DNA of 37,706 bases from Rhodothermales bacterium (GTDB lineage Bacteria; Bacteroidota; Rhodothermia; Rhodothermales; Bin80): contig JAAXGT010000210.1 of NCBI GenBank assembly GCA_012271205.1, positions 1 through 37,706 on the forward strand, read 5' to 3'. Below, piece by piece: positions 834 to 28,644 of the stretch (positions are counted from its first letter, which is position 1; every line of letters starts with the position of its first letter). The position numbers and the translations under genes are program-made. Below the pieces are notes generated by a model. The model was not told the DNA's origin. It did no database searches and worked only from the letters and a program-made list of their open reading frames with translations.

Positions 834-3800
834 ATGGTGCGGACTATACATCTGTGCCTTCTGGTGCTATTCATGCCTGCTGGATCCGCATTTGCGCAGA
901 CCGGCAAGATAACCGGTCGTGTAACTGACGAAGCGGGAGTCCCGCTACCAGGCGTCAACTTGTTTATTGCTGCCACATCTCAGGGCAGTATTACCGACTT
1001 GGACGGCTACTACGTGATTCTGAATGTCTCTCCCGGTCTGTACAGCCTGCGCGCTTCCTTTATTGGTTTCGGCGCACAGACCGTAGAGAACATACGTGTA
1101 AATATTGAGCAAACCACAACCATCAATTTTGAGCTTCAGGAAGATGCCATCGGGCTGGACGAACTGATTGTCACAGCCGAAATGCCTGTCGTGCAGGCCG
1201 ATGTATCCAACAGCCAACTGAATCTCACGGCCGAGCAGATTGAAGCACTGCCTGTCTCCAGCGTTACCAGTGTGGTGGGCTTGCAAGCCGGGATTCAGGG
1301 GCTTTCCATTCGCGGCAGTGGCTCAGATGAGGTCTCATTTATGGTTAATGGTCTCACATTGCGGGACGAACGCAATAATGCACCCTACACCAGCATTAGC
1401 CTCTCGTCAGTGGAAGAAGTACAAGTGCAGACGGGCGGATTCAATGCAGAATATGGCAACGTTCGGTCGGGCATCATCAACGTTGTGACAAAGGAAGGGA
1501 ATCGTGACCGTTTTACCGGTAGTGTTATCGTCCGGTACAGTACTCCCGCACAGAAGCATTTTGGGCCAGGCGCCGATGACCCTGATTCCTATTGGATTCG
1601 GCCCTTTCTTGACCCGGATGTTGCCTGGGAGGGTACGGAGGCCGGTGGCTGGGATGAATTTACACAGGCACAATATCCCCGTTTCGAGGGCTGGATAGCT
1701 ATTGCTGACGAACGACTTAAGGATGATGATCCCTCAAATGATCTAACGCCCGAAGCACTTCAGCAGGCTTTTTTGTGGCAACACCGGAAGCCTATGAAGA
1801 TTGTCAATCCCGACTACAATATTGATGTTGGCTTTGGTGGACCGGTCCCCTATCTGACCAGGCGCCTTGGCGCGCTGCGCTTTTACGCCTCCGTTCGCTC
1901 TGATCAAAGCATGTACCTCATTCCATTACACACGGATCGGTACAGGGAATGGTCGGGACATCTGAAGATGACCGCGGACCTCAAACCCGGGATGAAGCTT
2001 ACTCTGGAGGGGCTGCGAGGCCGCACTACGGGCACGTCGATCAGCAGAGCTGGACAGCCGGGAATGTTTCGATCTGCCTTCAGCATAGCCAGTCAATTGA
2101 CCCGGGTGAGTTTTATTGACTCACGGATCTATTCCACGGACTACTGGACGCCAACGGAAGTCAACAATGCTATGGGGGGCGCCAAGCTTACACACTCCCT
2201 CAGTCCGGCTACATTCTATGAAATTCGCTTCAACGCATTCCGGTCAAACTATGATACCAATCCCGGACGACTCCGGGACGAAACGCCTGTAGTATTCTTT
2301 GGCGGCGTTGGTTTTGACGAAGCCCCGTTCGGGTTTCAGCCGAAGCCGACGTTTGGCGTGGATGGCATGCGTACAGGGGTGGGAATGAGCAATGCGCGAG
2401 ATACGAGCCTAGTCACGGCCTATAATATCAAAGCAGATCTTACAAGCCAGCTCAACCGGTTCCTCCAGTTCAAGACTGGAATTGAATATAATCTGACAGA
2501 TTCGAAGGTAAACTACGGGCGCTATGACGTATTCTTGCCGAGCGGTAATTCGCACTCCGAATGGGATCGCACACCTGTTCGTGGCGCCGCATACGCCCAA
2601 AGCAAGCTGGAGTTTGCCGGCATGATCACAAACTTGGGCCTTAGGCTGGATTACTTCCATGCTGGTGGTGATTGGTATGTGTTTGATCCCTTCAGCGTAG
2701 CCTTCAGTGCCCGTTTTGCACCCGGCATAGATACACTGCTAACCCAAGCACCTACCCGTCGCATTTTTGCGCTGAGCCCGAGAATGGGGGTTTCTTTCCC
2801 CATCACAGAGTACAGCAAACTCTATTTCAACTACGGGCATTTTCGATCTCTGCCGGATCCGAACAACCTTTTCCTCTTACGCGACTATACGGAAACGGGG
2901 CAAATCAGTCGCGTAGCTGATCCCAACAACCCTTTGCCCAAGACTGTGGCGTATGAACTTGGCTACGAACAGTCGCTGTTTGACCAGTTCCTTATTCGTA
3001 TGGCCGGCTACTACAAGGATGTGTCGCTTCAGCCATATCTCACAGAGTACATTAGCCGGGACGGACAGGTCAACTACGTCATCAGTGAGCCTAATTCTTT
3101 CGAAGATATTCGTGGTTTTGAGTTTACGCTTTCCCGCAACCGGGGGCATTGGGTTCAGGGATTTGTCAACTACACCTATATGGTGTTCACATCCGGGTAT
3201 TTCAGCCTGCGTCGCAACTTCGAAAATCCTACGGCACAACGTGAGTTTGCCGAAAGTGATGCCGAGCGGCGCCGGGCCTCTTCCAGGCCTGTCCCCAGAC
3301 CCTATGCCCGGCTCAACGTGGATCTGCTGACGCCGCGCAATCTGGGTCCAAGACTGGGTTCACATGCCATTCTGGGCGGTTGGCGCATAAGCCTGATTGG
3401 CAGTTGGCAACAGGGAGCGAAATACACTTGGACCGGCGGCGGGGCTGTACCCGGTGTCATTAACAACGTCTCGTTCCGAGATTACTGGAACGCAAACCTG
3501 CGTTTCACCAAGAGTGTGGTATTCGCAGGGCGGCGTGCTCAGTTGTTTGTTGATGTTTTTAATCTGTTTAACAACCGCAGACTTTCCTTCAACGGTTTTG
3601 TGGACGGTAACGACCAGTTATCGTATCTGCGGTCGCTGCATCTTCCCGAATCTGACGACTATCAGACCAATATCCCAGGTACGGACAGGATTGGTGCATA
3701 TCGCTCCTACGATGTGCCGTTTCAGCCGATGGAGCGCATCGCCGCGCGAGAGAATGTGACTGCACCGAAGGCGGGAGTCATTTATTGGGAGTACGACTCA

Positions 3801-3962
3801 CGCCAGTACTTGGAATATCGAAGTGGGGCATGGGGCGCAGCGGATGCGCAGACTGTAGATCAGGTCCTGAAGGACAAGGCGTACATCGATATGCCCAATC
3901 AAAACTTCCTGACGTTTCTCGGCCCGCGGGATATCTACTGGGGAATCAGACTGTCTCTGTAG
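834..3962 (+). CDS. TonB-dependent receptor with CarboxypepD_reg-like N-terminal domain
   Basis: Outer-membrane gated beta-barrel expected to import a large ligand using TonB energy; the ligand is unknown. The ORF opens at 765, but ATG 834 puts a clean signal peptide (MVRTIHLCLLVLFMPAGSAFAQ) at the N-terminus, giving 1042 aa. Residues about 24-105 form the carboxypeptidase-regulatory-like beta-sandwich (GRVTDEAGVPLPGVNLFI, DGYYVILNVSPG). About 120-230 is the plug, with LSIRGSGSDEVSFMVNG and GGFNAEYGNVRSGIINVV. The rest is barrel with Y/F-rich alternating strands, ending IYWGIRLSL. It leads a plus-strand cluster, with the next gene three bases after its stop. Architecture resembles SusC/Oar-type receptors, but no SusD-like lipoprotein is present. 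A weak TTGAAA-N17-TTAACT lies upstream, too poor to call a promoter. Diverged paralogue: the receptor at 33271-36036. Confidence 0.93.
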   Translation: MVRTIHLCLLVLFMPAGSAFAQTGKITGRVTDEAGVPLPGVNLFIAATSQGSITDLDGYYVILNVSPGLYSLRASFIGFGAQTVENIRVNIEQTTTINFELQEDAIGLDELIVTAEMPVVQADVSNSQLNLTAEQIEALPVSSVTSVVGLQAGIQGLSIRGSGSDEVSFMVNGLTLRDERNNAPYTSISLSSVEEVQVQTGGFNAEYGNVRSGIINVVTKEGNRDRFTGSVIVRYSTPAQKHFGPGADDPDSYWIRPFLDPDVAWEGTEAGGWDEFTQAQYPRFEGWIAIADERLKDDDPSNDLTPEALQQAFLWQHRKPMKIVNPDYNIDVGFGGPVPYLTRRLGALRFYASVRSDQSMYLIPLHTDRYREWSGHLKMTADLKPGMKLTLEGLRGRTTGTSISRAGQPGMFRSAFSIASQLTRVSFIDSRIYSTDYWTPTEVNNAMGGAKLTHSLSPATFYEIRFNAFRSNYDTNPGRLRDETPVVFFGGVGFDEAPFGFQPKPTFGVDGMRTGVGMSNARDTSLVTAYNIKADLTSQLNRFLQFKTGIEYNLTDSKVNYGRYDVFLPSGNSHSEWDRTPVRGAAYAQSKLEFAGMITNLGLRLDYFHAGGDWYVFDPFSVAFSARFAPGIDTLLTQAPTRRIFALSPRMGVSFPITEYSKLYFNYGHFRSLPDPNNLFLLRDYTETGQISRVADPNNPLPKTVAYELGYEQSLFDQFLIRMAGYYKDVSLQPYLTEYISRDGQVNYVISEPNSFEDIRGFEFTLSRNRGHWVQGFVNYTYMVFTSGYFSLRRNFENPTAQREFAESDAERRRASSRPVPRPYARLNVDLLTPRNLGPRLGSHAILGGWRISLIGSWQQGAKYTWTGGGAVPGVINNVSFRDYWNANLRFTKSVVFAGRRAQLFVDVFNLFNNRRLSFNGFVDGNDQLSYLRSLHLPESDDYQTNIPGTDRIGAYRSYDVPFQPMERIAARENVTAPKAGVIYWEYDSRQYLEYRSGAWGAADAQTVDQVLKDKAYIDMPNQNFLTFLGPRDIYWGIRLSL

Positions 3963-3965
3963 CTC

Positions 3966-6089
3966 ATGATGCAAACGGCTGTGACCAAGATGGTTCGTTG
4001 CATCATGTTTTTGGCATGCGCGCTGGCATTACGCAGCGGCATGACAGTCCAGGCGCAGTTCATCAACAAATGGCTCTCCGCAGGCTCGCTGCACAACTGG
4101 TATTCCGAAATCGGCAGCGAGTGCGAGGGGTGCGGATTTGTGGGTACGCAACAGGATGGTTTGCGGTGGCCGGGCATCTACCGCCTTACGGACATGCAGG
4201 CTGCCAAATCATTGTGGATTGGTGCCATTAATGTGACTGATGAGCTGGGCACTAATTATGCACATCGCGTAGTACACGTGGGACCACGAGTATCGGGCGG
4301 AGGAGAATTCTTCCCGGTGCGGTTTGAGCTTGTAAGCCGGATGGCACCAACAGCTGTCTTTGTGGATGGAGCTATTACTGAGCCTGAAGCGGCCATGGTT
4401 ATTGACTATTCCGATCCGTCAATTGTTAGCGACGCAATGATCGTGAACGAGGTCAATACGCTTCTGGGCATTACGATGGAGCGCAAGATTATGCAGTTCA
4501 GCCAGGAATACCATGACAACTACCACGTCCACGAATACATATTCACCAACACCGGCAATACAGATGGAGATTCGGAGATCGAGCTGCCCGGCCAGACACT
4601 GGAGGGAGTATACTTCTTTTTTCAGTGGCGCCTTTCTGTGGCCAAGGAAACCCGTTATGTAATCGGCAATGGTACAGGCTGGGGGCTTAATGCCATGCTG
4701 GATACGCGCGGAGATGGTGTCAAACCGGATCCCCCGGGAGAGGACTTTCGGGCGCAGTTTGTCTGGCACGGCAAATTTCCGCCCTTTAATGCTTATGACA
4801 ATTTGGGTGGCCCCATCCTTCCGCAGGCGCTGCCCGCGTACAATATCGCACCCACCGATACATTAGGCCGCCTCGGCGCTTCCCAGTTTGTGGGCGTCGT
4901 GACCTTGCATGCAGACACGTCGCCTACGGATCAGACAGATGACCCGAACCAGCCCACCACAACAACTTGGATTGGATCGGATGAGCCTTACACGTCACAA
5001 AATGATGCCTTCAACCCATCCAAAATGGAGGTTGAATATGGTGTCATGGCGCAAGGTCATAAATCACCCCGCCATGCGGACGTGGTTGAGCCTGCCGGAC
5101 TGGAGGGATTTTTGAACCCGGTGGGTGATCCTAGTCTGGGAACGCCCGGCGGCTTTTCCAATGCCAAAGGCTATGGTCCCTACACCTTAGCCCCCGGTGA
5201 AAGCGTGCGCATTCTGCTGGCTGAGGGGGCGGCCGGGCTAAGCCGGGAAGCCAACTTAGCTATCGGGAGGGCTTACAAGGAGTCCGGGGCCAACGATGAG
5301 GCCCTTATTACCTATGAGGTCCATGGCCAGCCTCACACAATGACCAAGAACGAGTGGGTGTTCACGAGTAGGGATTCTCTGTTCCAGATGTTTCGACGAG
5401 CTGTGGCCAATCACGCGTCCAGTTTTGCCATCCCGCGCGCCCCCGCCCCGCCCAGTATCTTTGAGGTCACCGGTGGCGGTGATCGTATAGGCCTATCTTG
5501 GAGGCCCTACGAGACAGAAGCGCTGCCAGAGAGTTGGGAAATTTATCGTGCGCAGGGCCGGTATGACAGTACATATACGCTCGTGCATACTGCCGGGGGG
5601 AGTGAGACCGGCTTTGATGACCGGACCCCCATCCGTGGAATCGACTATTACTACTATATCGTAGCGGTACAGAGCGGAAGCCTTAATGATGGCACGGGAA
5701 TGACACCTGGAGGGCGCTCATTGCGGAGCTCCCGTTATGCCACGCAGACGTATACGCCCACGCGACTGAAAAGGCCGGCCGGGACGTCCCTTTCGGATAT
5801 ACGCATTGTGCCCAACCCGTTCAATATTGAATCGAGCCCGTTTTTACGCTTTCCGGATCAGACCGACAAACTGGCATTCTTCAATATTCCGGGCCGTTGC
5901 AAGATTTCCATTTATACTGATCTGGGCGAATTGGTGGACGAGATTGAGCACACGGATGGCAGTGGAGATGAGTTTTGGGATCACACCACTTCATCCAGGC
6001 AGATTGTAGCCAGCGGTCTCTACATTGCAGTGATCACCGACTTGGACTCCGGCGAAAGGATCATCAAGAAATTCGTCATCATCCGGTAG
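3966..6089 (+). CDS. Large secreted protein with Fn3 domain and T9SS-type C-terminal domain
   Basis: 707-aa exported protein of unknown function. A signal peptide ends near MTVQAQ (about residue 31); an alternative start is Met9 at 3990. The body (about 35-480) has no family I can name; it contains SECEGCGF and aromatic-rich segments such as YHDNYHVHEYIF. About 490-590 reads as a fibronectin type III domain (PSIFEVTGGGDRIGLSW ... GIDYYYYIVAV). The last 75 residues look like a T9SS sorting domain (IRIVPNPFN-type opening, KISIYTDLGELVDEI, SGLYIAVI, ending KKFVIIR). It lies three bases behind the receptor and eight before the PorV-like gene, so co-transcription is likely. The 1076-aa product at 29955-33185 holds the same position in a second cassette and shares the C-terminal pattern. 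It may be a surface partner of the receptor; that is inference from context. Confidence 0.85.
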   Translation: MMQTAVTKMVRCIMFLACALALRSGMTVQAQFINKWLSAGSLHNWYSEIGSECEGCGFVGTQQDGLRWPGIYRLTDMQAAKSLWIGAINVTDELGTNYAHRVVHVGPRVSGGGEFFPVRFELVSRMAPTAVFVDGAITEPEAAMVIDYSDPSIVSDAMIVNEVNTLLGITMERKIMQFSQEYHDNYHVHEYIFTNTGNTDGDSEIELPGQTLEGVYFFFQWRLSVAKETRYVIGNGTGWGLNAMLDTRGDGVKPDPPGEDFRAQFVWHGKFPPFNAYDNLGGPILPQALPAYNIAPTDTLGRLGASQFVGVVTLHADTSPTDQTDDPNQPTTTTWIGSDEPYTSQNDAFNPSKMEVEYGVMAQGHKSPRHADVVEPAGLEGFLNPVGDPSLGTPGGFSNAKGYGPYTLAPGESVRILLAEGAAGLSREANLAIGRAYKESGANDEALITYEVHGQPHTMTKNEWVFTSRDSLFQMFRRAVANHASSFAIPRAPAPPSIFEVTGGGDRIGLSWRPYETEALPESWEIYRAQGRYDSTYTLVHTAGGSETGFDDRTPIRGIDYYYYIVAVQSGSLNDGTGMTPGGRSLRSSRYATQTYTPTRLKRPAGTSLSDIRIVPNPFNIESSPFLRFPDQTDKLAFFNIPGRCKISIYTDLGELVDEIEHTDGSGDEFWDHTTSSRQIVASGLYIAVITDLDSGERIIKKFVIIR

Positions 6090-6097
6090 TGGGGAGA

Positions 6098-7099
6098 ATG
6101 AAGCCATTGCTTTACATAATGCTCCTTATGCCGCTTGCTGCACCCAGTGCTACAGCGCAGCAAAAGAAGCTTGCTCAGACGGGAATGAAATTCTTGGCCG
6201 TTTCAGTGGATCCACGTGCCGCGGGTTTGGGAGATGCTTTGACTGCGGTTGAGCATGGATCGGCATCTCTGTTTTACAATCCAGGTGGGATGGCATGGCA
6301 GAAGAGCAATCTGGACATAATGTTGGGCCAGACCCAATGGATTGCCGAAATCGACTATTCAATGGGTAGCATCGCTTTTCGCCCGGGGCGAGGGCGTTTG
6401 GGGGTGATCGGCTTTTCCTTCGTGATAGTGGATTACGGCGATTTGGAAGAAACCATTCGCTTTAATAACGAACAGGGATTTCTCGATGTCGGGACCTTTT
6501 CGCCATCGGCGTGGAGCTTTGGCGTAGGGTATGCCCGCACCCTGTCGGATCGGTTTTCTGTGGGCGCACAGCTCAAGTGGGCCAACCAGTACTTGGGAAA
6601 TTCGGTGGTCGGGTTGGGTGAAAACTCGGAATACGTTCGCGAAAAGGTCGAAGAGCGCGTACTGGCGTATGACTTTGGTGTGCTCTACAAAACAGGCTTC
6701 CGGAGTCTGAATTTTGCAGTCAGCGCCCGCAACTTTGCTCCCGAATTCACCTTCAGTGAGGAAAGTGTCGCACTGCCGCTTACGCTCCGTATTGGCGTGT
6801 CAATGGACATGATGGATCTCATTGACCGGGGATCCACCATGCATCAGCTCTTGCTTTCGGTTGACGCAGCCAATCCGCGTGATTATTCCGAGCAGATAAA
6901 AGTTGGCACGGAGTACATTTTCGTGGACACGTTTGTGATTCGAGCGGGCTATACTTTTCCGACAGATGAGCAGGGCTTGAGTCTTGGTCTGGGGCTGAGG
7001 CAGTCGCTTAGGCGGTTTGGCTTTGGGGCGGATTATTCGTTTACTGATTTTGGCATTTTTTCCAATGTGCAACGTCTCGCCATCCGGTTTTCGCTGTAG
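6098..7099 (+). CDS. PorV/PorQ-like (UPF0164) outer-membrane beta-barrel protein
   Basis: 333-aa predicted outer-membrane barrel. The ORF track starts at 5975 inside the previous gene; ATG 6098 gives a proper signal peptide (MKPLLYIMLLMPLAAPSATAQ) and sits just after GGGGAG. The mature start, GMKFLAVSVDPRAAGLGDA with LFYNPGGMAW, is the signature opening of the PorV/PorQ/UPF0164 family (bacterial FadL-related barrels). Repeated Gly/aromatic strands follow (FSVGAQLKW, EYIFVDTFVIRAGY, LGLGLRQSL), ending LAIRFSL. PorV proper is the T9SS shuttle that binds C-terminal sorting domains; here the gene directly follows a CTD-bearing protein, so a dedicated export or anchoring partner is plausible but unproven. 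Paralogue: 28833-29948. Confidence 0.88.
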   Translation: MKPLLYIMLLMPLAAPSATAQQKKLAQTGMKFLAVSVDPRAAGLGDALTAVEHGSASLFYNPGGMAWQKSNLDIMLGQTQWIAEIDYSMGSIAFRPGRGRLGVIGFSFVIVDYGDLEETIRFNNEQGFLDVGTFSPSAWSFGVGYARTLSDRFSVGAQLKWANQYLGNSVVGLGENSEYVREKVEERVLAYDFGVLYKTGFRSLNFAVSARNFAPEFTFSEESVALPLTLRIGVSMDMMDLIDRGSTMHQLLLSVDAANPRDYSEQIKVGTEYIFVDTFVIRAGYTFPTDEQGLSLGLGLRQSLRRFGFGADYSFTDFGIFSNVQRLAIRFSL

Positions 7100-8285
7100 A
7101 GCTTTGCACTACCTGCCGCTAATTGGCGTCCTATGCATTTCGCTGCTTTCCGGCTGTGATTCCGGGACGGCGCCGAGTATCTACGATCCGGACCGCACGA
7201 GTCTGCCTGATCCCATCATCGACAGTGTGGCACCTGATGGCAGCGCTCTGGCTGGCGTGGATATGGTTACCATCACAGGTAACAATTTTTCATCGCAGCC
7301 CACAGAAAATCTGGTATACTTCGGCGATGCGCGGAGTGAGGTGACGGGGGCTTCTCCTACCCAATTACACTTAGTAGCACCGAACAAGCCGCTTCCGGAG
7401 TTGATGCTTCGCGTTTCGGTTATCGGAGCGGAGAACTTCAGCAACAGCGTACCCTATAAGCTGGAGCCCCCCTTCGTGGAGTTTGGAGACGTACGCGATT
7501 TTGAAAATGTGTATGGCATAGCCACGGATATGGAGGGTAACGTATATGTGTCATTTGTGGCTCATGATCTCCCCGTTGGCATTACGCGCATTACCCCGGA
7601 TGGCGAACGCAGCGAGTTCGTCAGCTCACGCTTCTTCTGGACGGACTTGGACATAGGCCTTGACGGTTACCTGTATGCCGTCCGTTCCGTCCGGGCCCTT
7701 TTTCGCTTCCAAGAGGGATCCAGTCAGGAAGTATTTGCCGTGATCCCGAATACTGCAACCAAGTTGACTACGATTGCCATCGATGAGAATGGTCGAGTAT
7801 GGGCTGCCGGTAATAATTCGGAAATCTACTCGATTTCGCCGGACAAAACCGTGTCAGCCTATGGATTTGAATCGGACATTCGGGATTTGGCTTTGTTTGG
7901 AAACCATCTTTATGTTGCTGGTTTGAGAGGTGGCAGTAGCAAGGTTTGGCGCTTTCGCATTAATTCGGACGGCGAGTTGGAATCACCGGAAGAAGTGTTT
8001 GACGTTAGCGCTTTTAGCGGAAGAGAGGCCTTGGCTCTGGCTATCACCACTTCTGGACATCTGTATATTGGTACCGATGCCGATGATCCTATAATTGTGG
8101 TAGATCCGGACGGGAAAGGGGAGGCACTATACCCTGGTGTGCTGTCACAGTCGGTCCGGCAGTTTGCGTGGGGGCCACTCGGCTATTTGTTTGCTGCGAC
8201 GAATCGCACGGGAATATCTGCAGCCGGGATTATTCGTATTACTACGCGCCGACTCGGCAGCGGGAAACTTTCCATCGGGACTTAG
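7065..8285 (+). CDS. IPT/TIG-domain beta-propeller lipoprotein
   Basis: About 406 aa, predicted lipid-anchored. LCISLLSGC is a lipobox with Cys at about residue 31 from ATG 7065. That start keeps two arginines before the hydrophobic stretch and overlaps the PorV-like gene by 35 bases; TTG 7104 would avoid the overlap but leaves no positive charge, and the track's 7017 is longer still. After the Cys, PIIDSVAPDGSALAGVDMVTITG and YFGDARSEVTG are typical of an IPT/TIG immunoglobulin-like domain (about 50-130). The remaining 270 residues are propeller-like repeats of the NHL/SMP-30 kind (GIATDMEGNVYVSF, TIAIDENGRVWAAG, ALAITTSGHLYIGTD). Likely a surface or periplasmic binding protein of the receptor cluster; ligand unknown. 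Confidence 0.8.
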   Translation: MCNVSPSGFRCRALHYLPLIGVLCISLLSGCDSGTAPSIYDPDRTSLPDPIIDSVAPDGSALAGVDMVTITGNNFSSQPTENLVYFGDARSEVTGASPTQLHLVAPNKPLPELMLRVSVIGAENFSNSVPYKLEPPFVEFGDVRDFENVYGIATDMEGNVYVSFVAHDLPVGITRITPDGERSEFVSSRFFWTDLDIGLDGYLYAVRSVRALFRFQEGSSQEVFAVIPNTATKLTTIAIDENGRVWAAGNNSEIYSISPDKTVSAYGFESDIRDLALFGNHLYVAGLRGGSSKVWRFRINSDGELESPEEVFDVSAFSGREALALAITTSGHLYIGTDADDPIIVVDPDGKGEALYPGVLSQSVRQFAWGPLGYLFAATNRTGISAAGIIRITTRRLGSGKLSIGT

Positions 8286-8344: not shown

Positions 8345-9706
8345 ATGACTCGGAAAACGTTTCTATTCGCCTTGGCTTTCGTCATTTCTGGAACAGCACA
8401 TGCGCAGTCATGGATGGACATGGGGCCGTTTCCAGACTCAACTACTTTTTGGAGATCAACACACGGTGTAGCGGTGGATGTGCAGGACAAGGTGTGGATT
8501 TCACAATACTATCCAGAACCGTGGATTCTTCCAAACGGTGACACATTGAAAGATGCTAATGGCGAGCGTATACGGACCAGTGCCATTCACGTCTTCAATC
8601 CCGATGGTACCACAGCGATGGAGCCTATTCGTTCGTTCGCATTCGGAGGTACCACAGATACACTGTATTGGGATGCGAAAGACGGCCCGCGGAGGGATAT
8701 TCGAGGCCTTAGGCGGGATCACAATGGAGATATCATTGTGGTCGTTGGTTCGTCAGCCAGTCTAATGATGCGACTTAACCATATGACGGGTGAAGTCATG
8801 AATAAAGTCGATCTTGGCATTGGCTCTCCAGCTGCACCAGGAATCGATGGCGCGGGTAACATATATGTGGCGCCCGTAGTTGGCAGCGCAGGTCCAATCA
8901 GCTATTATAGCGCTGATTTTCAACCGTTAGGTGTTGTAGCCGAAGAAACACCAGGGATTGGAAGAACGCTGGAGGTGACGGCAGACGGCAATACCGTGTA
9001 CTGGTCGCCATTCACGTTGCTCTATACCGTTAAGTACCAGCGTCCAGACGAGTTTTCTGCGTTTGATTCGGCCGGGATCGTACATCATGGCCTCATTGCC
9101 GAGTCCAGTGTTCGCCATCCAACCACCGGACACGTCTGGCTCGGACATTCGATAGCGGGATCTCTTTCACTGATAGATACCACACGATTTGGAGATCCAA
9201 GTACATTGCTTACCTGGTACGCAATCGATCCAACAACCGACGAGATTGTGGATAGCTTGAACTTTGGCCTGCACCAAGATTTCGGGATTCAAAAGACGCG
9301 CGCGATCGGATTTTCATCGGACGGGACTGTAGCCTATGCTGGCTTATTTGATATTGAAGCAATGGATCCACGTGGATTTCCGGTCAAGAAGCTTGTGCGT
9401 AGCACTGCGGGAAACATTGAACGGGACCCATTTGAAATTCCGCAACGATTTACGCTGTCACAAAACTACCCGAACCCGTTCAACCCGCAAACCAAGATCG
9501 AATTTGAACTCAAGGATGCCGGATTGACCAGACTTACGGTTTATGACCTGCTTGGAAGAGAGGTGTCCACGCTTGTCGATGAGCACCTGAGTGTGGGCAA
9601 GTACACGGCTACATTTACGGCGGCAAATCTGCCGTCCGGAACGTACCTCTACCAGTTGGAAGTAACTGGCCAGCGGCTTACGGGTAAAATGCTGCTTGTA
9701 AAGTAG
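8345..9706 (+). CDS. Secreted beta-propeller protein with T9SS type A sorting domain
   Basis: 453 aa. The signal peptide is MTRKTFLFALAFVISGTAHAQ. Residues about 25-365 are propeller-like, with strand-turn units such as THGVAVDVQDKVWISQY, GLRRDHNGDIIVVV and GIDGAGNIYVAP, similar in flavour to the upstream lipoprotein. The last 80 residues are a textbook T9SS type A domain: LSQNYPNPFNPQTKIEFEL, LTVYDLLGREVSTLVD, LPSGTYLYQLEV and a terminal KMLLVK. The protein should cross the outer membrane by T9SS and lose or use its C-terminus for attachment. It follows the lipoprotein by 59 bases and is the last gene before a strong terminator, so it closes the first envelope cluster. Function beyond export is unknown. 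Confidence 0.88.
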   Translation: MTRKTFLFALAFVISGTAHAQSWMDMGPFPDSTTFWRSTHGVAVDVQDKVWISQYYPEPWILPNGDTLKDANGERIRTSAIHVFNPDGTTAMEPIRSFAFGGTTDTLYWDAKDGPRRDIRGLRRDHNGDIIVVVGSSASLMMRLNHMTGEVMNKVDLGIGSPAAPGIDGAGNIYVAPVVGSAGPISYYSADFQPLGVVAEETPGIGRTLEVTADGNTVYWSPFTLLYTVKYQRPDEFSAFDSAGIVHHGLIAESSVRHPTTGHVWLGHSIAGSLSLIDTTRFGDPSTLLTWYAIDPTTDEIVDSLNFGLHQDFGIQKTRAIGFSSDGTVAYAGLFDIEAMDPRGFPVKKLVRSTAGNIERDPFEIPQRFTLSQNYPNPFNPQTKIEFELKDAGLTRLTVYDLLGREVSTLVDEHLSVGKYTATFTAANLPSGTYLYQLEVTGQRLTGKMLLVK

Positions 9707-14454: not shown

Positions 14455-14480
14455 GACTGTTGGGAATCAATCCCGCTTGG

Positions 14481-15287: not shown

Positions 15288-15357
15288 CGAATCAGGACAA
15301 TGCCGGATGAGCCCCGTCAAGCGGAGCGAATAAAACGGGCTTGTCCCAGACTTGGTT

Positions 15358-15933: not shown

Positions 15934-15962
15934 TGAAGTGGTTTTTCGTATGTAGAAAAGTA

Positions 15963-16508: not shown

Positions 16509-16515
16509 TTGTGCA

Positions 16516-20560: not shown

Positions 20561-22189
20561 CTATTCGAATCCCCGTTGTGGGCGAGCCATTGCGGCATCA
20601 GTGATGGAAGCAGCATCATGAGTACCGTATGGCGCAGGCAGGCAGGTCTCTACCTGTCGATGCATCATACTGACTTGTTCTGCCATCCAAGCTTCGTCAC
20701 GGCCTAATTCCTTCGCAAGGATGTTGGCTACGGCCGGCGCACAAGCGAGGGCCGCCTCGCGGTTCAGGTACAGGGCCGGCGTGCGACGCACCAGCACGTC
20801 GCTTACCGTGCGAGCCATCTCGTGCCGTGCCGCCCAGTGGACTTCCCCGCGGCTATATGGCAAGTCGCAATGCAACCATTCTTGCCCATGCTCTATTTCC
20901 CTCATGACTGCTTCTACGTCTTCCCGGTCAGCCCCATACACTTGTAAGGCCGTGCCATTTTCCCGGGGGGCCTGCCATCCGTGCAGTCGCAGATTTGCCG
21001 TTACGCACGGGCGGGCTTCAAGTCCGCCTACCTGGACAGCTGTGTTGGTCGTGTCCTCTGCGATCCTGCGATACGTTGTCCATTTTCCTCCCGTGACGGT
21101 AATCAGACCAGACTTCGAAATCCGAACGACATGATCACGTGAGATGGAAGCGGTGTCCCGAGTGTTGCTCACATTGACAAGGGGGCGTAATCCAGCAAAG
21201 GCACCCAGGATGTCAGATGGGCTGATGCGACGTTCGAAATAGTGAGCCGCATGATCTATCAAGTATTCGATTTCGTCAACATGCGGTAACGGTTCGAGTG
21301 CAGGTTCACGGACAGGAGTATCGGTAGTGCCCAGCAGCACTCGCTCATGCCAAGGAAGAGCGAAGAGTACGCGGCCATCTTGTGTTCTGGGGATCAGCAG
21401 CGCGTGCCGGGAAGGGAAAAACGCTCGATCCACGATAAGGTGGATACCCTGGCTTGGGCGTACAAGATTAGAACTGCCAGGCTCGTCTTGCTTCCTGATT
21501 CCGTCAACGAAGACCCCGGCGGCGTTTATGACGACTTGTCCATGCAGGTGTAACTCTTGGTCGGCTTCAAGATCATGCGCTACGACTCCGGTCACCTTGC
21601 CCTGCTTCTTCAGCAGTCCGATAACACGGACATGATTGACTACTACCGCACCGTGATTTGTGGCAGTGCGGGCCAGCGCCAAAGCAAAACGGGCGTCATC
21701 AAACTGGCCGTCGTGATAGACGACACTGCCGCGCAGGCCACCGGTTTGAATCCCGGGAAGCTCTTCCAGTGTCCGCGTGCGCGAAAGGCGGTGTGATCTG
21801 CCAAACGAGTGATGGCCCGCCAGCAGGTCATAGATCTTAAGCCCCAGACCGTAAAACGGACGCTCCCACCAGGCATAAGTAGGAAGGATGAACTTCAGGT
21901 TGCGTACCAAGTGCGGCGCATTGTGACAGAGTCGGCTACGCTCGCGTAAGGCCTCTCGAACAAGCGCAACGTTGCCTTGCCTCAGGTACCTTACACCACC
22001 ATGCAGCAGTTTCGTGCTTCGGCTCGACGTGCCTTCGGCAAAATCGGCCTGTTCAAGCAGGACCGTCCGGTATCCGCGAGAAGCAGCATCCACGGCAGTC
22101 CCCAAGCCGGTAGCGCCTCCTCCAATTATGATCACATCCCACGCAACGTCGCCCTCTTGGATTTCGTCGAGGAAGACTTCACGCCTCAT
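20561..22189 (-). CDS. glpD: FAD-dependent glycerol-3-phosphate dehydrogenase
   Basis: 542 aa from ATG 22189 (MRREVFLDEI), leaving a 37-base gap to the upstream gene; the track start at 22246 would overlap it. DVIIIGGGATGLGTAVDAASRG (about 18-39) is the Rossmann FAD motif, followed by LLEQADFAEGTSSRSTKLLHGGVRYL, the GlpD/GlpA signature. GTTDTP, AGLRPLV and TVTGGKWTTYR are the later FAD/substrate contacts, and the C-terminal helical domain (EIEHGQEWLHCDLPYSRGE...VRRTPALYLN) is the DAO_C cap. It oxidises sn-glycerol-3-phosphate to DHAP and passes electrons to quinone at the inner membrane. It lies at the end of the minus-strand run behind the parvulin-like lipoprotein; no glpK or glpF is in the window. 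Confidence 0.95.
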   Translation of the reverse strand: MRREVFLDEIQEGDVAWDVIIIGGGATGLGTAVDAASRGYRTVLLEQADFAEGTSSRSTKLLHGGVRYLRQGNVALVREALRERSRLCHNAPHLVRNLKFILPTYAWWERPFYGLGLKIYDLLAGHHSFGRSHRLSRTRTLEELPGIQTGGLRGSVVYHDGQFDDARFALALARTATNHGAVVVNHVRVIGLLKKQGKVTGVVAHDLEADQELHLHGQVVINAAGVFVDGIRKQDEPGSSNLVRPSQGIHLIVDRAFFPSRHALLIPRTQDGRVLFALPWHERVLLGTTDTPVREPALEPLPHVDEIEYLIDHAAHYFERRISPSDILGAFAGLRPLVNVSNTRDTASISRDHVVRISKSGLITVTGGKWTTYRRIAEDTTNTAVQVGGLEARPCVTANLRLHGWQAPRENGTALQVYGADREDVEAVMREIEHGQEWLHCDLPYSRGEVHWAARHEMARTVSDVLVRRTPALYLNREAALACAPAVANILAKELGRDEAWMAEQVSMMHRQVETCLPAPYGTHDAASITDAAMARPQRGFE

Positions 22190-22226
22190 AGGCACCCTGC
22201 GTAGTTGGGACGAATAACACACGAGA

Positions 22227-23603
22227 CTACCACATCGGGTCAGCAACGGGAAAGGCGGGGCGCAGGGTATGGCCTTTGAGCAGGGTCAGTCCCGTGCTGT
22301 TTGGATCTGAAAGCGTTAGAGTGTCCAGCACAGTATGGTTTATGATCAAAGGGTAACGATCGCGCAACTGCCGAATGGTCTCCTCGATATTGGAAAGTTC
22401 TTCGCGCAGCGCACGATAAACCCACTTGTCGGTCCAGAGTGCAAGTTCGTGGCGTAGCGCTGGATCTTCGTCCATCCCCTCGTCCAATGCGCGCCTGACA
22501 AAATAGTGGTCACGAAGAGTTAGGCCGATTGCATCGTACAAATCATTCTCGAAATCCTCTCGATCCTCATGGCGCAAGGGGTATCGCGCAGCCGGAAAGG
22601 TGGCGAGAAAGTCACGTACGGTCCAGTCGCCCTCGGAGGTAGTAATAAGCACCTCATCCAGCATCGAACGAAGATCTTTATCGTCGTTGGTCTCGCGCGC
22701 CCATAACGCAGCCAACAGATTTCTTGGAGGCGGCCCCTCTTGGTGCATTCGCCAGAGCTCTTCTCGCATCAACCTGTAGGGCACTGGTTTCAAGTGCACG
22801 TCTAGCGGCTTCATCATGGTGCCGATAAAGGTCCGTGCCAAGACTCTCGCCTTCTGTTGAAAGGCTACCTGCTCGTACGTAGCACGTGTAGCAGCAGTAA
22901 GCGTCAAAGGTTCGCGGCGTATATCAATGGGTTCCAGAAGAATAAATTGGCCTTGGTAAGCTACCGGTGCCGAAATCTTGCCCAATGGCAAGTCGATGAT
23001 AGCCTCCGTCAAGTCTGGATGTAGATCGGAGCTTCTTATAAAGGGGCTTTCGAAGTCAGAAGGATGCAGATTCTGCTCATCATGCTTGGACACAAAGTCC
23101 CGAATCAAAGCCGCCAATCCGTGCTTTAATGCTTCATCGCGCAATCGATGCGCCTCCGCGTGAGATTTTGCCGGCAGATATCGCAATCGGAAGGAAACTC
23201 GGTCCTTCTGCATGGCTAGGGTTATGTCTTTGGGCGTAATATTGACGCGATCGTTGACGTAGCGCTGGAACACCTTCTCGACCAGCAATTCTTCACGTAG
23301 GTCCTCAATATTCCGCTGGATCCTCTCGTGGTCCAGAAGCCCGCGACGAATTCCCTCAAGAGCAAGTAGCTTCTCGTCAATTATTCGATCCAGATATGCC
23401 AGCCGTGTTCTGTCGCCCCCGAACAGTGCCGGAAATCCAAGTTCATAATTCAGAACAAAGTCCGTGGCATAGATCGGCTCGCCGCCTACCGTCGCTACGA
23501 TCGCTTCTCCGTCGATGGATTTAGGATTGACTGAATTCGGGGGACCACAACCTGAAATCGAAAAGAGTACACCTATCAGAACAAAACACACCAATCCTCG
23601 CAT
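22227..23603 (-). CDS. SurA/PpiC-like peptidyl-prolyl isomerase-related lipoprotein
   Basis: 458 aa with a lipobox FSISGC (Cys19), so anchored to a membrane. Residues about 33-135 form the SurA-N type helical chaperone region (VATVGGEPIYATDFVLNYE, LAYLDRIIDEKLLALEGIRRG). About 140-245 resembles a parvulin rotamase domain, with FRLRYLPAKSHAEAHRLRDEA, SDFESPFIRSSDLHPD and LPLGKISAPVAYQGQFILLEP, but the GGDLG-like core is replaced, so isomerase activity may be weak or lost. The C-terminal 200 residues are helical with no clear family. It starts three bases after the stop of the T9SS gene upstream, so co-transcription is likely. Probable role: folding or escort of outer-membrane or secreted proteins. 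Confidence 0.78.
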   Translation of the reverse strand: MRGLVCFVLIGVLFSISGCGPPNSVNPKSIDGEAIVATVGGEPIYATDFVLNYELGFPALFGGDRTRLAYLDRIIDEKLLALEGIRRGLLDHERIQRNIEDLREELLVEKVFQRYVNDRVNITPKDITLAMQKDRVSFRLRYLPAKSHAEAHRLRDEALKHGLAALIRDFVSKHDEQNLHPSDFESPFIRSSDLHPDLTEAIIDLPLGKISAPVAYQGQFILLEPIDIRREPLTLTAATRATYEQVAFQQKARVLARTFIGTMMKPLDVHLKPVPYRLMREELWRMHQEGPPPRNLLAALWARETNDDKDLRSMLDEVLITTSEGDWTVRDFLATFPAARYPLRHEDREDFENDLYDAIGLTLRDHYFVRRALDEGMDEDPALRHELALWTDKWVYRALREELSNIEETIRQLRDRYPLIINHTVLDTLTLSDPNSTGLTLLKGHTLRPAFPVADPMW

Positions 23604-23606
23604 CTT

Positions 23607-25589
23607 TTAGCGCAGAAGGGTTATCAGCTCATGAACCCTGTGCCCTCCCCCTTCCAGCACCAGTATATACGTGCCGGACGCCAAATGACCGATTGCCCAT
23701 ATTTCACGGTGGTTGCCTGACACTTTCGCAGGATGGATGACGGCCTTCACCTCTCGGCCAAGCAGGTCGATCATCTGCAGATTCACAAGAGATGGCTGGT
23801 CCAGCATGTAATTGATGTAGAGCTTGTCAGCCGCCGGATTGGGGAAAACGGCCAGTTGCAGGTCTGGAGGCGGAACCTGATCGGTTTCGGTGGTGCCAAC
23901 GTGCAGCAAGATATCTGGGAGGGCGACACTGTAGATAAAAGGATAAAATGTGCCCCATCCAGCCGTACGCTGATAATAGTCCGTACCCGACTCGGAATTT
24001 GTCCACAGCGTTCCATTTGTCGAGAACGCAAGATCCTCAATGCCATGGGGAAACGTAATACTGGCTTCCCAAACAGGATCTGTATCAGGACTGAAATCTG
24101 ATCGATTAAAGCGCAGCACTTCCGCTTGCCGACTATTACGATTACGGGCCATGAATACATAAACCCTGTGACCCACAGCATAGAAGTCCACCCCCTGTAT
24201 GTAGCGAGGGATAGGATAGATGACAGGGCTCGCACCGCGTACAATCAAACCGGCCCCGTCAAGTGGATAGCCGTACAGATAGGGTGGTGTCTCTCCGTCC
24301 CTCCGGTAATCGCCTACCCAAAGCGTGTCCTGAAAAGACGAAACAAATGAGGCCTTGCTTTGGACAGCTTGTGTTCCAGACTGATCCGGTAAAAGATCGA
24401 TATACCGGCTGCCCGCCTCATCGTATGGAGGAAGAAGATAGCGCTCTAAAAGACCTTGAGAAGCAACATAAATGGCCTGATCGACGAGGGCGAGCCCTCC
24501 AACGTGTGCAGTCTTCAATTGACCATTCAGGCGAAAGGTGCGGCGCACGCGACTTTGGGCCACGTCGATCTCAACAACAATGGAATGCCTGGTTGCAAGC
24601 TGGTTGGCACGGGTCCTGTGGTAGTAGGACACATAAACCAGCCTTGCATGACCGGCCTCATCACTCAATACGGCTGTGCCCTGCGGGATAAACGCATCGT
24701 TCACATGCGGCAAGAAAATCCGCTGGACAATCGGTGTCGAATACAAGTCTATACGTTGGTCCATAGGAAGGCTAAAGCTTCCTAAACCATAGTCATGGAA
24801 AGCAGGAATGCCGAAATAGGCACTTCCGTCAAAGGGCGGAGAAGTGGAGAGATATAAAGGATGGGCCACATAATCACGGACTATCGCAGCGAAAAGCAGC
24901 CCTGTGATGGAACCCGTCAAGTTCAGAGTATCCTCGGCACCCTCGGCCTGTGTCCCCACGAAAAATGGCTGCGAAATGACGTAGGGTGATGCGATCGTGG
25001 CCGAGATCGACTCCTCAGCATCTAATTCTCCGTCGCGATATATCCTCAGAATCAAAGTGCCCACAAAGGTGTAGCTGGCTGTTGCTGCAATCCACACGTC
25101 CTGGCCAGTTACAACCTCTTTCGAGCCCGCGATTCGGTAGGCTGTTCCCCCAATGACTACCGTAAAATACGGTACACCTGCGTCCAGACCAAGGGTGAAT
25201 CCATCCAACGTTCCAATACGATTGCTGAGTAACGTGTGGTGAGAATCGCGTTCAAGCAGCCGCATCCATACCTCGGCTGTTATGCGTGGACCGGCTGGCT
25301 GGTTAATATTCGCACCGCCACCGCCCCACATCACAGACGATACTCCTTCGAATTCGGCAGCCCAGATGGGTGCGTAGCCCCACCCCCCCGGCCAGCGGGC
25401 AGGACGCTCCCGAACGTCAAGAAACGGTCCTGTCTCCACGTACCTCGTATCAACTCTTGAGGATAATTCCGCCGACCCAGGCAGATAGCGAAAAACCACG
25501 CCCGCCGCATCCGCTTGCCCGGTTGAGAGCAAGAGTGCAGCCATCGCCATCCAAGGGTGCAGTCTGCCGCGTCTGGGAGTCGTGCTCAT
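23607..25589 (-). CDS. Secreted LamG/propeller-like protein with T9SS sorting domain
   Basis: 660 aa from ATG 25589, which gives the signal peptide ending MAMAALLLSTGQADA; the track adds 13 residues. The N-terminal 230 residues look like a concanavalin/LamG-type jelly roll (ITAEVWMRLLERDSHHTLLSNR, DGFTLGLDAGVPYFTVVIGG, ILRIYRDGEL). The middle 300 residues have short strand repeats suggesting a propeller (HVGGLALVDQAIYVASQG, TLWVGDYRR, IEDLAFSTNGTLWTN). The last 80 residues are a T9SS type A domain (LQLAVFPNPAADKLYINYML, MIDLLGREVKAV, SGTYILVLEGG, ending ITLLR). Ligand and activity unknown. It lies 88 bases downstream of the lamin-tail gene and three bases before the PPIase-like gene. Confidence 0.82.
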   Translation of the reverse strand: MSTTPRRGRLHPWMAMAALLLSTGQADAAGVVFRYLPGSAELSSRVDTRYVETGPFLDVRERPARWPGGWGYAPIWAAEFEGVSSVMWGGGGANINQPAGPRITAEVWMRLLERDSHHTLLSNRIGTLDGFTLGLDAGVPYFTVVIGGTAYRIAGSKEVVTGQDVWIAATASYTFVGTLILRIYRDGELDAEESISATIASPYVISQPFFVGTQAEGAEDTLNLTGSITGLLFAAIVRDYVAHPLYLSTSPPFDGSAYFGIPAFHDYGLGSFSLPMDQRIDLYSTPIVQRIFLPHVNDAFIPQGTAVLSDEAGHARLVYVSYYHRTRANQLATRHSIVVEIDVAQSRVRRTFRLNGQLKTAHVGGLALVDQAIYVASQGLLERYLLPPYDEAGSRYIDLLPDQSGTQAVQSKASFVSSFQDTLWVGDYRRDGETPPYLYGYPLDGAGLIVRGASPVIYPIPRYIQGVDFYAVGHRVYVFMARNRNSRQAEVLRFNRSDFSPDTDPVWEASITFPHGIEDLAFSTNGTLWTNSESGTDYYQRTAGWGTFYPFIYSVALPDILLHVGTTETDQVPPPDLQLAVFPNPAADKLYINYMLDQPSLVNLQMIDLLGREVKAVIHPAKVSGNHREIWAIGHLASGTYILVLEGGGHRVHELITLLR

Positions 25590-25677
25590 TCTTGTGCACA
25601 AAGGAATGCCCGTCAGAAAACAGTTCACCGGTCATCCCTGTCGGCGGACAAAATGAGTTGCCCGCCGGCATGAAGAA

Positions 25678-28644
25678 CTACTTCAGCAAAACCATCTTTC
25701 GTACCAGGTGTGTGTTGTCGGCACGTAGCACATAGAAGTAAACCCCACTGGCAAAGCGATCGGCTTGGAAACTGGCCGTATAGGTTCCGGCAGGTAGTGT
25801 CTCATTGACCATCACCTGGACACGCTGACCCAGCACATTATATACCTCGATCCTCACATTTGCCGCGTAAGGGACGGTATAAGAAAACGAAGTGCTGGGA
25901 TTGAAAGGATTCGGATAATTCGGACTGAGGGCAAACTGTTCAGGCAGTTCGCGTGACGAAGCACTATTCACAAGTGTGGCGGCATCGACCCAAACCGGCA
26001 TGGTAGCCGCATCAAAGTTCCCATCTCTGTCAAAACCGCCAAGGTGTCCCGTAAAACCGTGTCCGGTGGCGTCCTCTGTAGTTTCACCCTGCCCCTCATC
26101 GAAGTGCCAGAGCGCAAGAGTCATTGCGTCAGGCTGGAACGGTTCCGTCTGTAGGTTGAAGGTATCGGCACCGGCATATCGGTCGACCAATGAGACACGT
26201 ACCTCGTCGATCATCCCGCGGAATCCTTCGTATCGATCATTCCAAAGGTCGGCGGCTCCGTTACCTATGGCCACTGCCATCGTCCCGCCCAGGAGTGGAA
26301 CCTGCGACTCAATTTCAGCAACTTTGATGCCGTCGATATACATCCGCATCTTGTCCGCAACATTCCACGTTACCGCCACATGATACCAGCGGGGAAAAAA
26401 TTTCGTTCGTACGTCGGTTCCCTGTTCGAGATTGGTTGTATTCTCGCCGTCCTGCATGAAGAATAGTAGGCGCCCCTCGCTACGGCGCCAGCCCAAGCCC
26501 AAGTCGCCGGGATTGTTCCCTGCCAGATTCTTGCCAAATAGGTATGTCCAGTCTGGGTCATGTGTATCATTCGTCAGAAGGGAGTCTGGCTTGAACCAGA
26601 GCTCAATGGTGCCTTCATCCATTCGGATCGGAAAGAGCTGAGGAGCGTCGCGTACTTCAACGCGGTCACGCTCCCACCAGTTGAATGCCATCACATAGCC
26701 CGTGCCCCACGGATGGGGAACACTCCTGAATTCGTCAAGCCCGCCGACACCATCAATAGTCGTGGCCGGTGACCAGGGTTCGGAGCTGGTAGTCAAATGT
26801 TGGACAAAGGGGTCCATGGCCAGGAAATTTCCGTCGGGCTCGCGCGTGATGGAGTTATCCATGTCAGCCGGAGCCGCCGTGTTCAGAGTAAACTCCCAAT
26901 CGACAGTCACTCCTCCACTCATGATGGTCGGTGCGTCTCCACCGCTGGCACTGCCGAAGGCTACGTAGGCATCGTACGCCCCGTCAGGGCTCACAAGTAC
27001 TGCGTAGTCCCCCATTTCATCCAGGCCATCGCCGAGCATGCCACTGGCTGCGAAGACCCGCGACTGCAGCGGATCCTCATTGTATCCAGGCACGGCAGAC
27101 ACATCACCGCCTCCAAAGACGGCGACCAACTTTAGCGGAGGGAGAATAAAACCTTCCGGGAACGTGAATGAGAGCCCTCCCGGATCTCCTACGCTCCAGC
27201 CGGAAAGGTCCACGGCTATCTCTTCACTAGTGTTAATGAGTTCAATGAATTCGTCCTGCAGATCACCGACCATACCATCGCCGTTGGCATCACCGGCTGC
27301 ATCGGCAAGGATCTCATTGATGACGATTGTAACGGGTGGTTGCGGGGGCGGAATTTGCGTACGGCCATCTACAGTAACGGCGGGTGAAAAGGCCCTCGTG
27401 CTTACTTCCAGATGTTGTACGAATGGATCCGGAATGCCAACGTTACCATCCGGAAAACGGGTGACGGAATTGTCCGCGTTTGCCGGCGCTGCCACATCCT
27501 GCTCAATCTCGAAATCCGTACCCGCCGGATACGTCCCGACTGCAGGTCCTCCTGTGTTGGCAAGGTCGCCGTACGCGAACCACGTATCATACGTGCCGTC
27601 ATCGGACAGGAGCATGATGATGTCGCCCCCATTACGAAAGCCGTTGCCCACGGTACTGTCAGCTTGAAATACTCGCGATACCAGCGAGTCTGCATCGTAG
27701 CCCGGTACATTGGTCACGTCGCCTCCACCAAACACAGCGATGATTCCGCGGGGCTCAACCATATATCCCTCGGGAAAGACAAACGCAATGCCTTCATCAT
27801 CTCCCAGCATCCACCCTCCAATATCAACTGCGGTTTCACCCACATTCGCCAGCTCGATGAATTCGTCCTGACTCGAACTGCGCGTTCCGTCCATATTGGC
27901 GTCACCAGCACTCCCCCCTGGTGGGTCGGCCAACACTTCGTTGATAATAATGGTGAGGGGTGGCCGGGGCTTGGGGATCACGCTTGCACCGGTGATGGTC
28001 AGTCCTGGGGAAAAAAGGGCTGAGCTTACCGTGGTATGCTGTACAAATGGATCGGGTACCGAAGTATTGCCATCAGGATTTCTTGTAACAGAGACATCCT
28101 CGTTAGCTGCCACATGCACATCCACACCATATTCGAACGTGATGTTTGCAACGACATCGGAGGTCGGTGGGCCTGTACCCGTCTTCGAGTTGTAGGCAAT
28201 GTACATATCCTCGTTGCCGTCGGGTGACTGGATGATGATATAGTCACCACCGTTGGCGAAGCCATTCCCCAGCGTGTCAGCCGCGAATACGCGAGTGACT
28301 AAGGGGTCCGGATCGTATCCGGGAACATTGGTAACATCGCCTCCCCCAAATATGACGAGTAGCACCCTGGGGGGCAATATGTAACCATCCGGGAACGTAA
28401 AGTTGATTGTCTCATCATCACCGACCTTCCAACCGGTCAAATCCAGCGGCTCGGCACTGATATTGGCCAGCTCCAGGAACTCGTCGTGCGCGCCGGAACG
28501 CACCCCGTCTCCATTGGCATCGCCGGGCAAATCTCCTGCCGGGTCGGCGAGAAATTCGTTTGCGATAAGGCGCGGTGCTTGCTGTGCCAAGGCAACGTTG
28601 GCAGACAAGCATATGCAGGTAGCAAAGAGGAGAGCCGACCTCAT
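25678..28644 (-). CDS. Secreted protein: three lamin-tail domains, LamG domain, T9SS sorting domain
   Basis: 988 aa; the signal peptide is MRSALLFATCICLSANVALAQ. Three tandem units of about 200 aa follow (about 22-225, 230-435, 436-640). Each opens IxNExLAD.xGDxNxDG, carries DEFxELxNxxxxxxDLxGWxxGD, FPxGYxLxP and FGGGDVxxVPGY, and ends PDPFVQH. The core of each is a bacterial lamin-tail (LTD) Ig-like domain with an extended C-terminal part; the DANGDG-type openings could bind calcium. Next is a LamG/concanavalin domain (about 655-880: EGTIELWFKPDSLL, WYHVAVTWNVADKMRMYIDG, ALWHFDEGQGETTEDATGH). The end is a T9SS type A domain (SPNYPNPFNPSTSFSYTVP, YNVLGQRVQVMV, SGVYFYVL, KMVLLK). LTD domains in bacteria often occur on secreted nucleases; no nuclease domain is visible here. 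Likely an adhesin or surface coat protein. Confidence 0.88.
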   Translation of the reverse strand: MRSALLFATCICLSANVALAQQAPRLIANEFLADPAGDLPGDANGDGVRSGAHDEFLELANISAEPLDLTGWKVGDDETINFTFPDGYILPPRVLLVIFGGGDVTNVPGYDPDPLVTRVFAADTLGNGFANGGDYIIIQSPDGNEDMYIAYNSKTGTGPPTSDVVANITFEYGVDVHVAANEDVSVTRNPDGNTSVPDPFVQHTTVSSALFSPGLTITGASVIPKPRPPLTIIINEVLADPPGGSAGDANMDGTRSSSQDEFIELANVGETAVDIGGWMLGDDEGIAFVFPEGYMVEPRGIIAVFGGGDVTNVPGYDADSLVSRVFQADSTVGNGFRNGGDIIMLLSDDGTYDTWFAYGDLANTGGPAVGTYPAGTDFEIEQDVAAPANADNSVTRFPDGNVGIPDPFVQHLEVSTRAFSPAVTVDGRTQIPPPQPPVTIVINEILADAAGDANGDGMVGDLQDEFIELINTSEEIAVDLSGWSVGDPGGLSFTFPEGFILPPLKLVAVFGGGDVSAVPGYNEDPLQSRVFAASGMLGDGLDEMGDYAVLVSPDGAYDAYVAFGSASGGDAPTIMSGGVTVDWEFTLNTAAPADMDNSITREPDGNFLAMDPFVQHLTTSSEPWSPATTIDGVGGLDEFRSVPHPWGTGYVMAFNWWERDRVEVRDAPQLFPIRMDEGTIELWFKPDSLLTNDTHDPDWTYLFGKNLAGNNPGDLGLGWRRSEGRLLFFMQDGENTTNLEQGTDVRTKFFPRWYHVAVTWNVADKMRMYIDGIKVAEIESQVPLLGGTMAVAIGNGAADLWNDRYEGFRGMIDEVRVSLVDRYAGADTFNLQTEPFQPDAMTLALWHFDEGQGETTEDATGHGFTGHLGGFDRDGNFDAATMPVWVDAATLVNSASSRELPEQFALSPNYPNPFNPSTSFSYTVPYAANVRIEVYNVLGQRVQVMVNETLPAGTYTASFQADRFASGVYFYVLRADNTHLVRKMVLLK

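Follow-up and report, generated by a model that had tools for sequence, protein, structure and literature searches.

Cassettes of a TonB-dependent receptor, a CTD protein and a PorV-family barrel in a Rhodothermales genome: probable outer-membrane uptake units

In Porphyromonas gingivalis the proteins PorU and PorZ, which carry the C-terminal domain (CTD) of the type IX secretion system (T9SS), are anchored by the barrels PorV and PorQ as PorU:PorV and PorQ:PorZ subcomplexes (PMC5562754), and PorZ is held permanently by PorQ (PMC5562754, PMC10202324). The CTDs of PorU and PorZ are retained, and a review proposes a protective role for cognate PorV-like barrels, which would keep CTDs from being cleaved (PMC10202324). 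Type B CTD proteins have cognate PorP-like barrels (PMC9143113), and BamG is itself a FadL-type barrel (PMC12578637). The window considered here is a 37,706-nt stretch of a Rhodothermales bacterium (assembly GCA_012271205.1, the whole of positions 1 to 37,706 of contig JAAXGT010000210.1), and it contains two cassettes in which a TonB-dependent receptor (TBDR) is followed by a CTD protein and then by a barrel of the PorV/PorQ family, copy 1 at 834-7099 on the plus strand and copy 2 at 36036-28833 on the minus strand. Each cassette is probably an outer-membrane nutrient-uptake unit, in which a surface partner exported by the T9SS and held by the barrel stands in place of SusD. The analysis establishes the co-directional triplet and its co-inheritance, the family and fold of the barrel, the separate branch formed by the CTDs, the catabolic context and the co-occurrence with PorU, and SprA, PorU, PorV and PorQ are all encoded in the host genome.

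An earlier note on this DNA, made from the sequence, had reported both cassettes, with gaps of 3 bases between TBDR and CTD protein and of 8 bases between CTD protein and barrel in copy 1. That observation is confirmed: the copy 1 coordinates agree, the same order is seen on the minus strand, and the TBDR assignment is borne out by family matches. The parts are as follows.

834..3962, plus strand: copy 1 TBDR (P0001), CarboxypepD_reg and Plug over cut-off, plus barrel
3966..6089, plus strand: copy 1 'short-type' CTD protein (P0002), 707 aa, signal peptide, no Pfam family
5793..6089, plus strand: copy 1 T9SS-type C-terminal domain, the last ~98 aa, matched by the PorZ CTD model NF052228 (E=1.7e-5) and by the cassette-CTD profile
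6098..7099, plus strand: copy 1 PorV/PorQ-family barrel (P0003), NF033709 196 bits, cut-off 90
33271..36036, minus strand: copy 2 TBDR (P0004), PF00593, Plug and CarboxypepD_reg
29955..33137, start uncertain, up to 33443, minus strand: copy 2 'long-type' CTD protein (P0005), structure model with a predicted local distance difference test score (pLDDT) of 85
28833..29948, minus strand: copy 2 PorV/PorQ-family barrel (P0006), NF033709 186 bits, modelled 14-strand barrel, best PDB match PorV 8gl6

The uncertain start of the copy 2 CTD protein places its gap to the receptor at roughly 30-135 bases. The middle protein comes in two subtypes, a long one of 1,000-1,300 aa (copy 2) and a short one of 660-780 aa (copy 1), and gene by gene the two copies are about 20-27% identical, so that they represent anciently diverged subtypes and a recent tandem duplication within the window is ruled out. 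The copy 1 middle protein had been described as a giant Fn3 protein, which did not hold, since P0002 is of 707 aa and its failure to match any Pfam family leaves 'Fn3' unsupported by sequence. RNA elements were searched for and none was found.

The argument is carried by recurrence. A profile scan of named genomes with the alignment of the long middle protein gave at least 508 relatives, of which the best 80 loci were taken with their flanks; these come from Rhodothermales, Ignavibacteria/Melioribacteraceae, Calditrichota, Neomarinimicrobiota, KSB1, Kryptonium, Stahlbacteria and unplaced Bacteroidota. The receptor lies upstream and the barrel downstream in 71 of them, one further locus (L100) has all three genes in a changed order, and the remaining 8 are cut by contig ends and are consistent with the triplet. 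All three genes are therefore present at 72/72 testable loci in several phyla, which excludes chance, and the neighbour check in related genomes that had been set beforehand as a refutation test spoke strongly for the cassette. Apparent exceptions at L104, L120, L085, L086 and L088 turned out to be artefacts of overlapping open reading frames (ORFs), with the triplets intact. When the 80 loci are pooled with those of the host and its relatives, 99 CTD-barrel pairs result, 92 with a receptor in the same run; the median gaps are 8 and 10 bases, and stop-start overlaps of -4/-1 occur at 15/92 and 18/99 junctions. The long protein is found at E<=1e-20 in 51/118 genomes of an even sample of the phylum, and among ~1,000 ORFs there was no natural fusion of cassette genes. 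Other barrel/CTD arrangements exist, as at L073:7299-10826, where a 527-aa CTD protein is followed by two tandem PorV-family barrels with no receptor. At L180:6554-11520 a PorV2-like barrel lies directly 3' of a 1263-aa PVC-type CxxCH heme-binding protein.

The three genes are also inherited together. Across nine paralogous cassettes of the host the distance matrices of the three genes are correlated (Mantel r 0.90, 0.83 and 0.86; p<=0.002), and in 49-60 of 92 cases, with ~1 expected, two genes point to the same nearest cassette, species history contributing to this. Compared with one related complete genome, all three genes find the same partner in the pairs L071-L082, L069-L081 and window copy 2-L080.

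As to family, the PorV half of the PorV/UPF0164 label first given to the barrels stands, both scoring more than twice the family cut-off, and the UPF0164 half falls away, the match being sub-threshold and in copy 2 only. The window barrels remain below the cut-offs of the PorV equivalog (NF033710, 90 and 65 bits, cut-off 250) and of the PorQ equivalog (NF033711, 89 and 67 bits, cut-off 220). Searched against PDB sequences, the barrel profile finds PorV as its sole match (E=1.5e-24), and the predicted structure of the copy 2 barrel (pLDDT 88) is of the FadL type with 14 long strands, its best PDB matches being PorV 8gl6 and 6h3i; the top fold match, 8gl6, is the RemA-CTD-bound translocon. The receptors score only 74 and 78 bits against the SusC/RagA model (TIGR04056, cut-off 368 bits), and over the N-terminal part alone.

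The middle proteins P0002 and P0005 gave no hit to the models for T9SS cargo of type A (TIGR04183/PF18962) or type B (TIGR04131/PF13585). Their last ~100 residues match weakly the CTD models of PorZ and PorU, the nearest available, and the long-type and short-type cassette CTDs together make up a single family (hhalign probability 100%, 57% identity) on a branch apart from cargo and PorU CTDs, the long-type CTDs being somewhat nearer PorU in profile-profile comparison. The T9SS-like C-terminus seen at the outset thus survives as a branch of its own, and not as a type A domain. No sequence relative of the long CTD protein is present in the PDB, and the copy 2 model has no whole-chain match among the solved structures listed (best template-modelling score to query 0.16), its partial matches being Fn3-type segments, with PorZ 5m11 at rank 26. 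A SprA-like segment in several long CTD proteins (SprA model positions 604-652; for example in L071:973-4368) was considered and set aside, the match being weak and the reverse search not confirming it; this weak signal lies near an N-T-x-V-x-x-P motif.

Set beside SusC/SusD (RagA/RagB), the cassette shares a TBDR with a CarboxypepD_reg N-terminus, a surface partner, and operons with glycan enzymes, regulators and transporters. In contrast to those systems it has no SusD, its partner combines a signal peptide with a T9SS-type CTD, a barrel of the PorV family is added in every case and the receptors stay under the TIGR04056 cut-off. With PorQ-PorZ and PorV-PorU it shares the pairing of one PorV/PorQ-family barrel with one large surface protein, the CTD of which would likewise be retained, and PorZ and PorU provide the best models for the cassette CTDs; it differs in having a TonB receptor and catabolic genes beside it, in its many copies per genome, in having no sortase or A-type lipopolysaccharide role and in barrels that score under both equivalog cut-offs. 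The SprF/PorP-like barrels and their type B CTD proteins (SprB, PG1035) also provide a cognate FadL-type barrel per CTD protein and many such pairs per genome, although the cassette barrel is of the PorV and not the PorP family, the CTD resembles type A and matches neither PF13585 nor TIGR04131, and a receptor is included. BamG-BamH and BamG2-BamH2 of Bacteroides again combine a FadL-type barrel with a cognate surface protein, but there the surface protein, BamH, is a lipoprotein and BamA carries the complex, whereas the cassette barrel favours PorV by sequence and by fold. No description of the triplet was found in the literature searched, most subscription journals and preprints lying outside that search, and so its novelty is likely, not certain; the parts are known families and what is likely to be new is the combined unit.

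The genes around the cassettes are largely catabolic. Among the flanking genes of the 80 loci (152 scanned) are binding-protein-dependent permeases (26+3), solute-binding proteins (14+3), GH3 (6+7), LacI (9), GH94 (1+3), GH16 (3), GH81 (1), SSF symporters (5) and ROK kinases (3+2), and GH130 too is among the neighbours. Counted by locus, neighbour clusters for sugar ABC components occur at 28 of the 80, the GH130 type at 19, SSF at 14, GH3 at 12 and LacI at 12; at least one carbohydrate-type cluster is present at 49/80 loci and at least two at 35/80. Within the host genome cassettes adjoin two genes of the alpha-amylase type together with a T9SS protein that matches CBM20 below threshold (C188), a LacI regulator with a T9SS GH16/CBM6 enzyme (C214), two sulfatases (C63), a heparinase-like enzyme (C93), a purple acid phosphatase (C218), an amidase (C21), and an SSF symporter with three FG-GAP/ASPIC proteins (C23). 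Three consecutive FG-GAP/ASPIC (UnbV) proteins lie 3' of a short-type cassette at L075:10685-15931, with an SSF symporter upstream; like-sized genes occupy the same place in L191 and L196, where a family search gave no identity.

PorV-family genes occur at 15 places in the host genome, which has ten cassettes, nine recognised as triplets at first annotation and a divergent tenth at C208; the receptor of the one at C21 is cut off by the contig start. Canonical T9SS parts are encoded separately, PorU with PorV at C67 (PorV 288 bits) and PorQ at C209 (232 bits), and so the cassette barrels are extra. No SusD is present at any host cassette, the host SusD matches lying at C206, C55 and C10 (two over cut-off), and the host SusC reaches only 44 bits against the cassette-receptor profile. 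Since the genome keeps its SusD genes, the cassette is a system parallel to SusCD and no replacement for it. The idea that it offers an alternative to SusC/SusD gains support from the placing of cassettes in loci for starch, beta-glucan, sulfated glycans, phosphate and glycerophosphodiesters, and has to be narrowed to a parallel role. In other genera of the family, orthologues of the CTD protein reach 80-84% identity for copy 1 and 84-85% for copy 2, those of copy 1 elsewhere in the order are 38-70% identical, and triplets are intact in the host's relatives. SprA is present in 39/39 related genomes and PorU is over cut-off in 37/39; the two relatives without PorU are the only two of the 39 without either cassette CTD protein. 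Both of these (G028 and G038, of the host's order) keep SprA and SusD.

As proposed here, the TBDR would be the importer, and the CTD protein would cross the outer membrane by way of the genome's SprA/T9SS translocon and stay at the surface, where it would partner the receptor in binding or as a lid. The PorV/PorQ-family barrel of the same cassette would first collect the CTD and then hold on to it, much as PorQ holds PorZ and PorV holds PorU, and a CTD protein so held would be neither cleaved nor attached to lipopolysaccharide by PorU. The T9SS parts would do in the cassette what the surface lipoprotein SusD does for SusC, and the substrate may differ from copy to copy, being set by adjoining enzymes and inner-membrane transporters, with glycans expected in most. 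Because the trio recurs across phyla beside sugar or phosphate genes, it probably does the job that SusC/SusD has in gut bacteria. The functional reading of the earlier note is to this extent partly supported, although 'shuttle', the word used for the barrel, may be the wrong one: a one-to-one barrel better suits a permanent anchor, as in PorQ-PorZ, and the PorV-like barrel may be such an anchor.

Several points weigh against the uptake proposal. That the CTD protein is secreted, stays on the barrel and touches the receptor is inferred, and so is what each copy takes up. The 80 loci are the best matches to one subtype and many are Ignavibacteria orthologues. Among the five long-type host paralogues taken alone the gene-to-gene correlation is not significant (p 0.06-0.47), and the co-inheritance signal is mostly the long/short split together with shared species history. 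The likeness of the CTDs to those of PorU/PorZ is only moderate, the short-type CTDs being no nearer PorU than cargo in profile-profile comparison. At 31/80 loci no recognised carbohydrate cluster is seen, and the two PorU-less genomes share one genus, which makes the co-occurrence with PorU effectively a single event.

An alternative account would have the cassette serve secretion only, the barrel being a transient dedicated shuttle to the common PorU/PorZ attachment complex. The CTD protein would then be a cargo, either anchored to lipopolysaccharide or released, which captures substrate with no contact to the receptor, and the operon would do no more than co-regulate uptake and capture. PorV does act as a shuttle in P. 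gingivalis (PMC5562754), the host encodes PorU and a canonical PorV, ordinary type A cargos flank the cassettes, and a gene with a T9SS tail lies directly upstream in 42/48. Yet no dedicated barrel goes with those adjoining type A cargos, whereas the cassette CTD class has one at every testable locus and branches apart from the cargo CTD, and we consider this account unlikely. Still less probable is a role in assembly with no part in uptake, in which the PorV-like barrel and a PpiC/SurA-like lipoprotein would help the large receptor and its partner in the manner of BamG and the peptidyl-prolyl isomerases BamJ/K in the beta-barrel assembly machinery of Bacteroides. Such a lipoprotein is found at 38/80 loci (those of long-type cassettes), which makes it a frequent fourth member, and the copy 2 barrel does match BamG weakly (E=7e-5), but at 22 bits as against 186 for the PorV family, with BamG at rank 24 by fold; moreover the PpiC gene is not nearby at about half of the loci, and this reading leaves the middle protein's CTD without explanation. 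That the receptor transduces a signal, with the CTD protein sensing its ligand at the surface, and that the two control the adjoining catabolic genes, seems very improbable: LacI/RpiR regulators do lie upstream at some loci, but anti-sigma/ECF (extracytoplasmic function) pairs did not stand out among the listed neighbour families, and the inner-membrane sugar transporters that follow at 28 loci fit import.

A broader form of the uptake proposal, to which we give somewhat less than an even chance, is that these cassettes constitute a separate class of energised outer-membrane importer, a three-protein complex in which the extracellular lid of the TBDR is a T9SS substrate docked on a private PorV-type barrel, often accompanied by the PpiC/SurA-like lipoprotein, and widespread in the non-Bacteroidia branches of the Bacteroidota/FCB (Fibrobacteres-Chlorobi-Bacteroidetes) group. 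If so, a role would be found in Rhodothermota, Ignavibacteria, Calditrichota and Marinimicrobia for many surplus proteins of the PorV/PorQ family and for a large family of surface CTD proteins that lacks annotation, and it would become clear how these lineages, with few or no SusD genes, can take up polymers. Substrate-uptake loci there that are missed by predictors based on SusD could be found by a simple rule. Type IX secretion would then be tied directly to nutrient import, and the published idea that cognate PorV-like barrels shield CTDs from cleavage would become testable.

The remaining genes beside the two cassettes of the window are these.

7017..8285, start uncertain, likely about 7065, plus strand: lipoprotein-like TIG and beta-propeller protein (Pfam TIG), 3' of copy 1
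8345..9706, plus strand: T9SS type A cargo after copy 1, TIGR04183 36 bits, cut-off 23
25678..28644, minus strand: T9SS type A cargo with three LTD domains and LamG (domain/family matches), 3' of copy 2
23607..25628, minus strand: T9SS type A cargo (family matches), 3' of copy 2
22227..23603, minus strand: divergent PpiC/SurA-like lipoprotein, member of the PpiC neighbour cluster, no Pfam match of its own
20561..22246, minus strand: GlpD-type glycerol-3-phosphate dehydrogenase, PF01266 and PF16901
19417..20292, minus strand: glycerophosphodiester phosphodiesterase (GDPD), PF03009 105 bits

Copy 2 is thus followed on its own strand by two T9SS cargos, the PpiC/SurA-like lipoprotein, GlpD and GDPD, and GlpD is kept behind the orthologous cassette at six other loci. 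Going by these last two neighbours, the substrate of copy 2 is probably glycerophosphodiesters. An FGGY (GlpK-like) kinase lies near related cassettes in L092, L093, L098 and L099. The TIG and beta-propeller gene behind copy 1 has a homologue at the same place in L087, and a gene of like size is there in L183, L193 and L194. Between the cassettes the minus strand carries BamA (POTRA/Omp85), two OmpH/Skp-like chaperones, panB and surE (13654-19089). An AAA/STAND-like ATPase at 10426-11895 on the plus strand, in a stretch of locally high G+C (0.61) with long antisense ORFs, is possibly a separate acquisition.

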